A stretch of 64,000 nucleotides of DNA from Haladaptatus sp. R4 (GCF_001625445.1 NZ_LWHG01000021.1:434001-498000), one strand, 5' to 3'. Counted from the first letter of the stretch, positions 41,833-46,059 are shown. Numbers and translations: made by a program. The notes: generated from the letters alone by a model not told the origin.

Positions 41833-42750
41833 ATGGTTCGGAACGTCGCACCCGAGATGGCGGAGTTGGAGCCGGAGGATTTCTATCTCCTCTCCGGCGT
41901 CGAGCAGGGGATGCGCTTCAGCGAATGGGTGCAAAAGGAGAAGATTCCAAACTTTTCACGGCTGACTGCCGAGGAGGTCGAGTATCGAATCGACCGCTGT
42001 CTCGACCGCGAACTGCTCCAGCGCAAGACCATTCAGTACGAGGGCTACACCCTGACGTTCGAGGGGTACGACGCGCTCGCGCTCCGGACGTTTTCGGAAC
42101 GCGAGACGATTCAGGGCGTCGGCTCGCCGCTCGGCGTCGGGAAGGAGAGCGACGTGTACGAGGTACAGTCGTTCCGGCCGCTCGCGTTGAAGTACCACCG
42201 CGAGGGGTACACGAACTTCCGCGAAGTGATGAAGGAGCGCGATTACACCTCCGACAACGAGCACGTCTCGTGGCTCTACACGGCCCGGAAGGCCGCCGAA
42301 CGGGAGTACGACATCCTGGAAGCGCTGTACCCCGACGTGAGCGTGCCGCGCCCCATCGACCACAACCGCCACGCGATCATCATGGAGAAGATAGACGGCG
42401 TCGAACTCGCGCGCTCGAAGTTCGAGGACGCGCAGGTCGTCCCCGTGCTGGACCTCGTGCTCCGCGAGGTGAGCGACGCCTACCAAGCGGGCTACGTGCA
42501 CGCGGACATGAGCGAGTACAACGTGTTCGTCAACAGCGAGGGCATCACCATCTTCGACTGGCCTCAGGGCATCCCGACCGACCACCAGAACGCGGCGGAG
42601 TTCCTCGAACGCGACGTTCGGAACGTGGTCGGGTTCTTCGAGCGGAAGTACCCGCGGCTAGTCAGCGACGTGGACGTATCGGCGGTCGCGGACGCCATCG
42701 AAAAAAACGAGTTCGAATCGGTTCGCGCGTACTCAGAAGACGTACGATAG
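41833..42750 (+). CDS. rio2: Rio2-type atypical protein kinase
   Basis: A 305-residue protein. Residues 1-85 form the Rio2-specific winged helix. The kinase core has a flexible nucleotide loop [11 protein letters not shown], the lysine in [18 protein letters not shown] (catalytic loop HxD...N) and the metal-binding IFDWPQ. Rio2 acts in maturation of the small ribosomal subunit, and a ribosomal protein gene (L15e) sits 3.5 kb away. Its 3' end overlaps the antisense DUF1328 gene by 18 bases. Confidence 0.93.
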
Positions 42751-42885
42751 CACCGCCAGTACGAGGAACACGATTACCAGCCACTTGGCGATGTTCATAG
42801 ACATACCGGCGATACCACCCGCGCCGAGCACGGCAGCGATGATGGCGAGAATGACGAACGCAACCGCGAGTGCCAGAAGCGCCAT
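42733..42885 (-). CDS. Small DUF1328-type membrane protein
   Basis: A 50-residue protein, [21 protein letters not shown] followed by a GGIAGM turn and [19 protein letters not shown], matching the two-helix DUF1328 family (usually about 53 residues). An in-frame extension back to 42936 adds a polar, Cys-containing leader without a family counterpart. It overlaps rio2 by 18 bases on the opposite strand. Function unknown. Confidence 0.75.
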
Positions 42886-42942
42886 CAGTGGCTCACCCCG
42901 CTGACGTATCTGTGTGCAAGATACATGGGTATCCATTGGACA

Positions 42943-42974: not shown

Positions 42975-43097
42975 AAGGTAGGGATGTTATTTGTGGCCGA
43001 AACCGGATTTTATCACAGGAGATGAGGTTTCCAATAATTATTTTCTTGTTAAAATAGATTGAATAAATTGATAATATGTGGGAAATATTGTGTGTAT

Positions 43098-43232
43098 ATG
43101 GCACGACAGGAAGTCGCCAAATACCTCGAACAGCACCCACGAATGATCGGCGTTTTGTTCATGATGACGTTGTTGATGATGCAGACCGCGCCCGTGTTGG
43201 CAGGCGGTGGCGGAGCATCTCAGGGACCATAG
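43098..43232 (+). CDS. 44-residue hydrophobic peptide (DUF7503-like)
   Basis: ATG 43098 opens a 44-codon frame ending at TAG 43230. The N-terminal 15 residues are charged (MARQEVAKYLEQHPR). Residues 16-35 are one hydrophobic, Met/Leu-rich segment (MIGVLFMMTLLMMQTAPVLA) and the last nine are Gly/Ser-rich. It resembles the tiny haloarchaeal proteins I know as DUF7503. It stops five bases before the convergent CHAT gene ends. Either a membrane-inserting peptide or a short secreted peptide is possible; A-G after residue 35 could be a cleavage site. TATA-like AATAAATTGATAAT lies 25-38 bases upstream. Confidence 0.7.
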   Translation: MARQEVAKYLEQHPRMIGVLFMMTLLMMQTAPVLAGGGGASQGP

Positions 43233-43237
43233 AATAC

Positions 43238-45373
43238 CTATTCAAAATATTCCGTAGTTTGCCAGAGAATCTGACCGTCGATTATAATCGGTTCTGATTC
43301 GATATTCAGGTAGCTCTTTAGTTTCTCAAGCGATATATTTTCGAAAGAGGCACCATTTGAAACGAGAGTGCGAGAACTGGTTCCAAGGACGTTAACCGCA
43401 TACGTTGATCCAAGCCGACACAGGGTATTAGGATACGTCATAATTTCTACATTATATGAATTCTCGCCCGTCGTCTTGATGGATGATAATAAAGAAACGC
43501 CCCCGTCGGGTTGTACTAACGAACTACTCCCATTGCCTAATGTAATATACCGATAACCAGAGACAGTTTCTCGACGAGCAATTGATAACGCAGTTCGAAG
43601 AGAAAATCCGGCATTTAGCAGTCCAGCAAATGTTTGACCGACTCGGGTAGCAGTTGTATTTGGAACATCAGCCAACGTTACTACACCACCGATACTCCCC
43701 TTCTCAATTAGTGACATTCCCTGTTCGTATGAGGAACAAGCATTCAGAAAGAAAGCTTTTATTGCAACGTTATCGAGTGTCGATGCATCAAGACTACCAT
43801 CTTCACAGAGGAATCCATCCTTATCAACATGACCTATGTAGTGAAATAAATCCGCGGGCGTTTCGAGAATATCACGAATCTCAGACACAGTTCGGTTATG
43901 GTATATTTTTACTTCACAGTCAATTAGATCATGGAACTCGTACATCTTCTCGACTATTTCACCGGACATATTATTCTCGTTGCATACTACACGAATATTT
44001 ATGTTGGATTTATTTGGTGCTGCATATTCAAACCGCCGCTTCAGCGCGTCAACAGTCAGTTTATTGGCACCCAATGGGAATCCGTCACCTATCCATGCAT
44101 GCTCGGTTGTTTCTACAGGATCGGTATGGACAATTTTCTCGGTGTTGTCTTGACTACCCGTCCCTCGAAAAATATCGGTGTCGGCAGTTCGCTCTTGTTG
44201 TGAGAATCCTGTTCGATAGAAGTCGTCGAGCATCTGTGGTTGCGAAACCGTCTGTTCCACGGACCGGACCGGTGCGCTCCGAATCAAAGAGAGGTCGTAC
44301 GCAAGAAACGGGAGTACCGCTGCATGTTCGCTAAATGGCGTCAAATCAGTCGTAAGCGGCCACGTTGGAACGTACTCAGAGATGGTATCGTATGGTACCG
44401 AGAGGTACGTTTCCAACTGTTCGGTGTGCGAGCTTTCATATACTTCAGCAAATTCGAAATCTAGTAGCGATTCTACCTGATTCCGTTCGTGAAGGGTCGA
44501 TTGAATAATCCCATCAGTATTAATAATACAATCAAGGAACAATATTTGCTTGAGAATGCGATGAATCGTCTCCTCATACGTACAATCGGAGAGCAACGAA
44601 TACTCGAAATTACCGGCAACTAACTTTGGTGTGCCACTCGTCGGAACGACTTCTGCGCCGAGATAGTACGCAAGTGATGCCGCCGGAAACACCTTCCTGT
44701 GCGTCAATGGGAGTTCAAGGCGTACGTCCGTATCTGGCCGCGAAATGGAATCCGGAACGTGAAATTCGTCGCCGAGTTCTATAAGAGGAGGATGTCCTCG
44801 AAGTGTGGGATGGGCACGGTCGGGTGTCATCATTTTGAGTGCGGATCCGAATGTCGAGAGCGCACGCATCGTGTCCTGAACAGATCCGCTTACGGTAATC
44901 GTCCCCTGCGGTGATTCGTGGTATGATCGTGCACCAATCCGGACATGAGATGTTTCAGCGAACGAGAAGCTGATTGACTTCTGTTCTGTCCGAATGGTGA
45001 CCGGAGAGGAAACAGAGAGATAGACGACAATTGAGACACCATTTATTTGTAGATACCATCGCCCCTTATCATAGCGAGTTTCAGTATCAGTGTTCGGTGT
45101 GAAGTTCCGTACGAACTCACCATCCCCAGAATACACAGTAACGCTCGCCAGCACCGGCGAGACGATTTCATCCGTCTCGATGGTCACCGCCGAGTCGATA
45201 GGATAGTAAAACGAGTCGGCGTCCGCTGGCGTCGGTTCGACCGGGCGCGGCGTCTGTAGTTCGAACCGAACTTTCTCGATTGGGTCGTAAATCTCGATGC
45301 CGGGGTCTCCCAGCAATGGGGTGAACTGTGGTTCCACGGTTGTTGAGTGAATATCGCTCAGAGGTCTACCCAC
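43238..45373 (-). CDS. CHAT-domain (caspase-like) protein
   Basis: A 711-residue protein with a GTG start overlapping the upstream gene by 16 bases; GTG at 45337 is the alternative. The CHAT-type protease fold is in the last 220 residues: the catalytic His is in HYIGH (H515) and the Cys in FFLNACSSYEQG (C546), the order and spacing of HxxGH...NAC cysteine proteases. The N-terminal 480 residues are long and contain beta-rich, variable sequence with FYYPIDSAVTIETDE near residue 54, not a known sensor to me. The gene is visibly AT-richer than its surroundings, with codons ending in A/T common. It is predicted cytoplasmic. Confidence 0.82.
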   Translation of the reverse strand: MGRPLSDIHSTTVEPQFTPLLGDPGIEIYDPIEKVRFELQTPRPVEPTPADADSFYYPIDSAVTIETDEIVSPVLASVTVYSGDGEFVRNFTPNTDTETRYDKGRWYLQINGVSIVVYLSVSSPVTIRTEQKSISFSFAETSHVRIGARSYHESPQGTITVSGSVQDTMRALSTFGSALKMMTPDRAHPTLRGHPPLIELGDEFHVPDSISRPDTDVRLELPLTHRKVFPAASLAYYLGAEVVPTSGTPKLVAGNFEYSLLSDCTYEETIHRILKQILFLDCIINTDGIIQSTLHERNQVESLLDFEFAEVYESSHTEQLETYLSVPYDTISEYVPTWPLTTDLTPFSEHAAVLPFLAYDLSLIRSAPVRSVEQTVSQPQMLDDFYRTGFSQQERTADTDIFRGTGSQDNTEKIVHTDPVETTEHAWIGDGFPLGANKLTVDALKRRFEYAAPNKSNINIRVVCNENNMSGEIVEKMYEFHDLIDCEVKIYHNRTVSEIRDILETPADLFHYIGHVDKDGFLCEDGSLDASTLDNVAIKAFFLNACSSYEQGMSLIEKGSIGGVVTLADVPNTTATRVGQTFAGLLNAGFSLRTALSIARRETVSGYRYITLGNGSSSLVQPDGGVSLLSSIKTTGENSYNVEIMTYPNTLCRLGSTYAVNVLGTSSRTLVSNGASFENISLEKLKSYLNIESEPIIIDGQILWQTTEYFE

Positions 45374-46059
45374 GCGGTCGTCGTGCCGAGTTCCGGGACG
45401 TGCCAGCGGTGGTCAGGGTCGTCGCCGTTCTTCTGGCGGAGTTCGATTCGGGCGTCGAACAGCGGCGATAGCTTCGCGACGAGGTCGGCGTCGTCCGGCA
45501 TGGGGAAGTGGTAGTGGGCCATCCCGCGAACGCCCTTGGTGATGGCTCCGATGGAGCGCAGGAATCGCTTGACTGCCGGGAGACGATGCTCGTCCACGAG
45601 GTAGTTCAGCGAATCGACACAGAGCCGCAATTCCGCCGGGGAGACACCACCGGCGTTGTCGTCGTAGAACCCAATTGCGGTCACGATCTCCTCGCGGAGT
45701 TCGTGCAGTCCGTTGTGGCCGTCGAGCGGCGGGAGTTCGTCACCGAAACTCGACGCGGCCTCTGGCATGGCGCGGCGTCGGTTGCCGCGGTCGATGAGCC
45801 ACACCGAGGGATCGTCGTACGAGACGGTCTTCGGGAAATGCTCGTCCGCGGTCGCGATGCCCGCGTCGGTGAGCGCGAGGACTCGCTTCCGGTCGTTCAT
45901 ATCGTCGCCGAAGAGGGTTCGTGACGCTCGGTTGGTCACGCATTGAGATACTTCACCCGTGACGAGGAGGTTACTGCCGCTCTGCCGAAGCGCTTCGAGG
46001 TGTTCCCGAAACGCATACACGTCCTCCTTGTCCCGGAATAACGGCAGATCTCCTTTCAT
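45358..46059 (-). CDS. RecA-like small protein upstream of CHAT (DUF7504-like)
   Basis: A 233-residue protein of the haloarchaeal RecA-like type. SNLLVTGEVSQCVTNRASRTLF has the position of a P-loop but lacks the Gly-Lys-Ser/Thr, so nucleotide binding is doubtful. LRLCVDSLNYLVDEHRLPAV resembles a Walker B strand and helix, and MAHYHFPMPDDAD follows, as in KaiC/RecA-like proteins. I connect it with DUF7504 from memory. It is co-translated with the CHAT gene (16-base overlap). The TATA-like TTTATCAAATT about 20-30 bases upstream indicates a leaderless mRNA. GC content is normal, unlike the CHAT gene. Confidence 0.65.
   Translation of the reverse strand: MKGDLPLFRDKEDVYAFREHLEALRQSGSNLLVTGEVSQCVTNRASRTLFGDDMNDRKRVLALTDAGIATADEHFPKTVSYDDPSVWLIDRGNRRRAMPEAASSFGDELPPLDGHNGLHELREEIVTAIGFYDDNAGGVSPAELRLCVDSLNYLVDEHRLPAVKRFLRSIGAITKGVRGMAHYHFPMPDDADLVAKLSPLFDARIELRQKNGDDPDHRWHVPELGTTTAWVDL

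Follow-up and report, generated by a model that had tools for sequence, protein, structure and literature searches.

Does the CHAT-type protease gene of Haladaptatus sp. R4, with a hydrophobic 44-codon gene converging on it and a RecA-like gene overlapping its start, form a defence system with these two neighbours, a functional unit of another kind, or part of the ordinary housekeeping complement? A sequence-only reading of the locus had proposed a three-part signalling or abortive-infection-like system while allowing equally for housekeeping. We examined the locus in a window of 64,000 nucleotides, the whole stretch of DNA analysed, from a genome of 4.9 Mb, and compared its genes with relatives across the haloarchaea.

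The peptide gene (43098–43232, plus strand) encodes a 44-residue hydrophobic protein (YLEQHPRMIGVLF...GP-stop) that belongs to Pfam family DUF7503 (PF24335, 68.5 bits against a cut-off of 27). Facing it, the protease gene (43238–45373, minus strand, GTG start) encodes 711 residues, assigned as separase/caspase-like from an AF2 model and Foldseek searches. The two stop codons (43230–43232 and 43238–43240) have five bases between them. The third gene (45358–46059, minus strand) encodes a 233-residue member of Pfam family DUF7504 (PF24336, 183 bits against a cut-off of 27), and the start of the protease gene overlaps it by 16 bases (45358–45373). The details given in the sequence-only reading (a peptide of 44 codons, a protease of 711 residues, the 16-base overlap and the five bases between the stops) were exact to the base.

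That reading also described the protease gene and the peptide region as AT-rich, which holds for the protease gene (GC 0.474; window 0.611; DUF7504 gene 0.634) and for a stretch of 148 bases ahead of the peptide gene (0.324) but not for the peptide coding sequence (0.563), so that the AT-richness lies in the protease gene and the peptide upstream region. It is not a trait of the CHAT family, as CHAT genes elsewhere fall just 1–2% below their flanks in GC. The peptide upstream contains an AT-rich promoter-like box (TTAAAATAGATTGA, 43049–43062, plus strand) 36–49 bases before the start codon. Its pattern, learned from 111 peptide upstreams, in which the box lies ~43 bases (mostly 40–46) ahead of the ATG, matches the window only here, with 0.01 matches expected. 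Elsewhere in this genome the box is also found ahead of a ParA-like gene and a Tat-signal gene; because these genes are unrelated, a private regulon signal is unsupported, and the box may instead be a strong basal promoter.

A protease and a peptide gene arranged tail to tail

Among the 196 genomes surveyed in the order, 174 contain a CHAT relative, 164 DUF7503 (163 of them over the cut-off) and 191 DUF7504. A CHAT relative is present in each of the 163 genomes whose DUF7503 passes the cut-off, and the 22 genomes that lack CHAT all lack DUF7503 (Fisher p ~3e-21, phylogeny ignored). Co-occurrence is far beyond chance, and the catalytic His and Cys are conserved (below), so that neither of the two outcomes named in the sequence-only reading as refuting it came about. 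The 11 genomes with CHAT and no peptide comprise ten whose best CHAT matches are remote (E >1e-80) and one fragmented draft. In a wider sample of the phylum, no DUF7503 scored over the cut-off outside the order, and distant CHAT relatives also occur in four genomes of one other family, where no similar peptide lies alongside; at least the catalytic Cys is retained in three of these four.

The arrangement is conserved too. A genus panel of 40 DUF7503 genes from 33 haloarchaeal genera was drawn from the best-scoring peptides, together with ~5 kb of flanking DNA either way; 39 of the genes face a CHAT gene tail to tail, the stops lying −17 to 260 bases apart. A second set, of 79 named loci carrying the 85 CHAT genes most like the window protein, has a convergent peptide for 72, and in 57 of these 72 the gap is −4 to 5 bases. 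No peptide was found near 12 of the 85, tandem copies among them, or beside most of the remote CHAT relatives. As background, one 42-kb Haladaptatus stretch has about ten convergent gaps, mostly of 12–82 bases and one within −4 to 5; against this small comparison the closeness of the CHAT and peptide stops is notable. The link between peptide and protease is therefore tight, and the unit that emerges is a pair, CHAT and DUF7503 tail to tail.

Pairwise distances among CHAT proteins and among their peptides correlate (r 0.52), a value attained in none of 5,000 trials in which peptides were reassigned at random to the CHAT genes within each organism. Restricting the comparison to organisms with several copies gave an r of 0.46, where shuffling averaged 0.05. 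Protease and peptide evolve as one unit. Had the linked genes been duplicated or transferred jointly, such a correlation would arise just as under direct co-evolution, with no physical contact between the products.

Variant arrangements were also seen. Tandem same-strand CHAT copies without a DUF7503 peptide occur at four loci (L223, with three in a row, L122, L127 and L167), and two tandem DUF7503 genes (G056:C1 486534–486659 and 486671–486796; L034, L200) face a single CHAT gene. The peptide gene had been left unannotated in the one Haladaptatus plasmid record that we inspected.

Features of the three proteins

The AF2 model of the 711-residue protein, built from an alignment of 62 sequences, has a mean pLDDT of 88.3. 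Foldseek matched its C-terminal part to separase (E 3e-7), SAVED-CHAT (2e-6) and gingipain R (7e-5), each with probability 1.00, and to Craspase protease subunits (2e-4 to 1e-2). His515 (codon 43829–43831, minus strand) and Cys546 (43736–43738, minus strand), picked out beforehand as the catalytic dyad, are both invariant in 69 aligned relatives. The Pfam CHAT model scored the protein at 11.1 bits, under its cut-off of 24, and the CHAT profile had no match among PDB sequences. The assignment as a CHAT-type protease therefore rests on the predicted structure and the conserved dyad; judged by its model, the protein is CHAT-like by fold and not a Pfam CHAT member, and it would be expected to be proteolytically active. 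Two CHAT relatives of one genus (L217, 4152–6590; L225, 4010–7372) lack both the catalytic His and Cys and are probably pseudoproteases.

The N-terminal region of the protease covers residues 12–370 (44264–45340, minus strand). Residues 1–370 are predicted to fold into a beta-rich part and then an alpha/beta part, and searches of Pfam, NCBIfam and solved-structure sequences gave no match to them. TPRs before the CHAT domain are absent: Pfam gave no TPR match, and residues 12–161 are predicted strands. Conservation is pronounced in this region, with the residues around R149-S150-H152 (RSxH) and R192-G193-H194-P195-P196 (RGHPP) among the most conserved of the whole protease. It may be a regulatory or ligand-binding region of no recognised family. 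The longer motifs that contain these residues, GARSxH and PTLRGHPP (residues 143–203; window ~44763–44947, minus strand), are near-invariant and polar and resemble the ligand or active site of a family not yet recognised.

The peptides are nearly constant in length and strongly constrained. In 130 distinct DUF7503 relatives aligned on an [HN]-P-[RK] motif ahead of the hydrophobic stretch, the Pro and the Arg/Lys are present in 100%, the Leu preceding the motif in 97%, a Gly in 98% and a Phe within the stretch in 100%; later in the stretch, Gln-Ala-Gly occur at 88, 75 and 92%. From the motif to the end of the peptide there are 30–33 residues, and charged residues are almost absent from the C-terminal tail. 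Positive charge ahead of the hydrophobic stretch suggests an N-in topology. The peptide ends in Gly-Pro in 142 of 155 cases, and every one of the four Gly and four Pro codons is used; selection therefore acts on the peptide as a protein, and this ending is not a by-product of DNA overlap. Convergent peptides also accompany remote CHAT genes at L214 (4081–4353, plus strand), L220 (3718–4425, plus strand) and L157 (1649–1861, plus strand); these were missed by the family profile and have HP[RK], a hydrophobic stretch and the Gly-Pro end. The DUF7503 family is probably larger than its Pfam model.

The DUF7504 protein (model mean pLDDT 92.8) had been called RecA-like, correctly as regards fold: its best structural match is the KaiC CI domain (E 1e-7, TM ~0.56). 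It differs from the KaiC/RecA-family ATPases in that none of 84 DUF7504 members has a Walker A motif (GxxxxGK[ST]), which makes ATP hydrolysis unlikely. An obligate three-gene system did not survive the comparison. Immediately upstream, in the same orientation, a DUF7504 gene is present for 48 of the 82 CHAT genes from the named loci and for 13 of the 38 from the genus panel (~35–60%). DUF7504 is absent near many pairs and is far commoner than the pair, with up to 16–17 scored matches per genome. The core is thus the CHAT/peptide pair, and DUF7504 is its accessory.

Proposed function of the pair and rival explanations

We put at roughly 60% the probability that CHAT and DUF7503 are a functional pair in which the peptide is the substrate of the protease or its membrane regulator. 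The two-gene module would combine a separase-like CHAT cysteine protease with its own single-pass membrane peptide, encoded tail to tail and acting jointly. Most likely, the peptide sits in the membrane with its N-terminus inside; the protease would dock at the conserved L-x-x-[HN]-P-[RK] motif on the cytoplasmic face and probably cut there, and would thereby set the amount of intact peptide in the membrane. At loci that have it, the KaiC-like DUF7504 protein would probably carry the signal or help the protease assemble. Taken by itself, cleavage of the peptide by CHAT is a tentative proposal, at somewhat less than even odds. In separase, D2151 reads the P1 arginine (PMC9729208). Hand alignment revealed no obvious counterpart in the CHAT protein, and for that reason we leave the exact cut site unpredicted.

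A more specific form of this reading, which comes a little short of an even chance, is a near-universal haloarchaeal switch that serves normal physiology and not defence and consists of a separase-like protease and a dedicated 44-residue membrane peptide, which the protease either processes or is restrained by. Just as tentatively, the switch would join a protease bearing a new type of N-terminal region to its peptide as a signalling pair unlike known CHAT systems. The explanations weighed below overlap with the preferred one, and the probabilities given to them need not add up to one.

The strongest of them is one branch of that reading and predicts an intact peptide. As a pure inhibitor or membrane anchor, the peptide would hold CHAT inactive, as securin does separase, until a signal frees the protease for other proteins. 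The fold closest to that of CHAT is indeed separase, which is controlled by the inhibitor securin (PMC9729208), and conservation extends into the hydrophobic segment of the peptide (F, QAG), beyond the needs of a simple cut site; the tail-to-tail order, however, does not favour making enzyme and inhibitor together. We consider this version unlikely, while giving it real weight.

Considerably less probable is that the peptide is a Sec precursor releasing an uncharged extracellular signal of 7–10 residues that ends in Gly-Pro; CHAT would then either process the precursor or respond downstream. The peptide does have an n-region, a hydrophobic core and an A-x-A-like site, with SQAGxVAA following the core and then a short variable tail, nearly free of charged residues, to Gly-Pro. 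Yet a signal peptide has no need for an invariant Pro, R/K and Phe or a near-invariant QAG, conservation falls mainly within the part that would be cut off, and no export or receptor gene is consistently close by among the neighbour families.

These neighbours also bear on antiviral abortive infection, along the lines of the sequence-only reading, in which DUF7504 would sense, CHAT would cut and the peptide would permeabilise the membrane, as in CHAT–gasdermin systems. It has precedent in known defence systems, where CHAT proteases are the activators of gasdermins and Csx30 (PMC9729208). Haladaptatus and Halorussus have several copies of the module, a relative is present in 25 haloarchaeal plasmid records, and the window copy is AT-rich. 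Against this, PADLOC, applied to 116 neighbour proteins, returned thirteen models, mostly HerA, each matching a single neighbour, and gave no match for the peptide, CHAT or DUF7504 protein. The neighbours are housekeeping or signalling genes, and their families include DUF7504, response regulators, HalX, MFS transporters, aminotransferases, universal stress proteins and PAS domains. On these neighbours a defence island is rejected, as is a viral origin, no relatives having been found among viral contigs. With 174 of 196 genomes of the order carrying a CHAT relative and DUF7504 not obligate, we regard abortive infection as improbable.

Shared surroundings instead recur within lineages. In Haloferax, Halogeometricum, Halobellus and a Haloferacaceae archaeon, a response-regulator gene follows the peptide and an aminotransferase and/or stress-protein gene precedes it; Haloarcula and two Halomicroarcula have a second common context, with the same two upstream genes. 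The window neighbours, which from our own reading of their sequences we take to be an L15e gene and a RIO-kinase-like gene, are kept in Haladaptatus sp. DYF46; the closest named relative of the window CHAT protein is also from a Haladaptatus. These shared contexts point to vertical retention in ordinary surroundings in some lineages, which is a further argument against abortive infection. Between the presumed RIO-kinase-like gene and the peptide gene, a short ORF (42733–42936, minus strand) encodes a hydrophobic protein that, judged by eye, looks like small two-helix membrane proteins.

Least probable of all is a link at the level of RNA or DNA, with overlapping convergent transcripts damping each other and protein functions otherwise separate: the conserved tail-to-tail order, with stops at most five bases apart in 57 of 72 pairs, and the peptide gene's own promoter-like box would suit it, but selection is clearly on the peptide as a protein, pairing is kept at gaps of up to 260 bases, and short convergent gaps are not rare (most of the ~ten in the 42-kb Haladaptatus stretch are below 100 bases).

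Relation to known systems

The window protease shares its predicted fold and invariant His/Cys dyad with the CHAT/separase branch of clan CD, and differs in falling under the Pfam CHAT cut-off and in having 370 N-terminal residues without a known family or TPR pattern. Bacterial CHAT–gasdermin and type III-E Craspase–Csx30 likewise set a CHAT protease gene beside one specific partner gene. Here, in contrast, the partner is a 44-residue membrane peptide and not gasdermin or Csx30, the order is convergent and not that of an operon, and there is no CRISPR or defence neighbourhood; gasdermin, Csx30 and gRAMP partners were all lacking at the haloarchaeal locus. This is a CHAT-type protease with a dedicated partner whose partner, N-terminal region, gene order and setting are all unlike known systems. 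By curated score the peptide falls in DUF7503 and the third protein in DUF7504. To these Pfam entries, neither of which has an assigned function, our analysis adds that DUF7503 is paired with CHAT and that DUF7504 has a KaiC-like fold from which Walker A has been lost.

The open-access literature, outside which most subscription papers lie, contained no mention of DUF7503 or DUF7504, and nothing joining the CHAT domain with haloarchaea or Haloferax volcanii; searches on DdvA and orthocaspase likewise gave nothing. The CHAT/DUF7503 pairing, kept across the order, is apparently unstudied so far.

One published observation may bear on the family. A caspase-like activity has been described in H. 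volcanii, its gene unnamed (PMC3615174). H. volcanii has DUF7503 and DUF7504, and the CHAT gene is present in many other Haloferax species. The CHAT family is a possible candidate gene for this activity, as a lead only, because the activity prefers Asp substrates and is also reported from non-halophilic archaea (PMC3615174), beyond the range shown for the family. It nonetheless gives the hunt for that gene a concrete candidate, and H. volcanii, the main laboratory model, possesses the peptide family. About four fifths of the sampled haloarchaeal genomes retain the CHAT/DUF7503 pair. If the proposed reading is true, archaeal caspase/separase-like proteases would have a dedicated micro-peptide partner outside defence.
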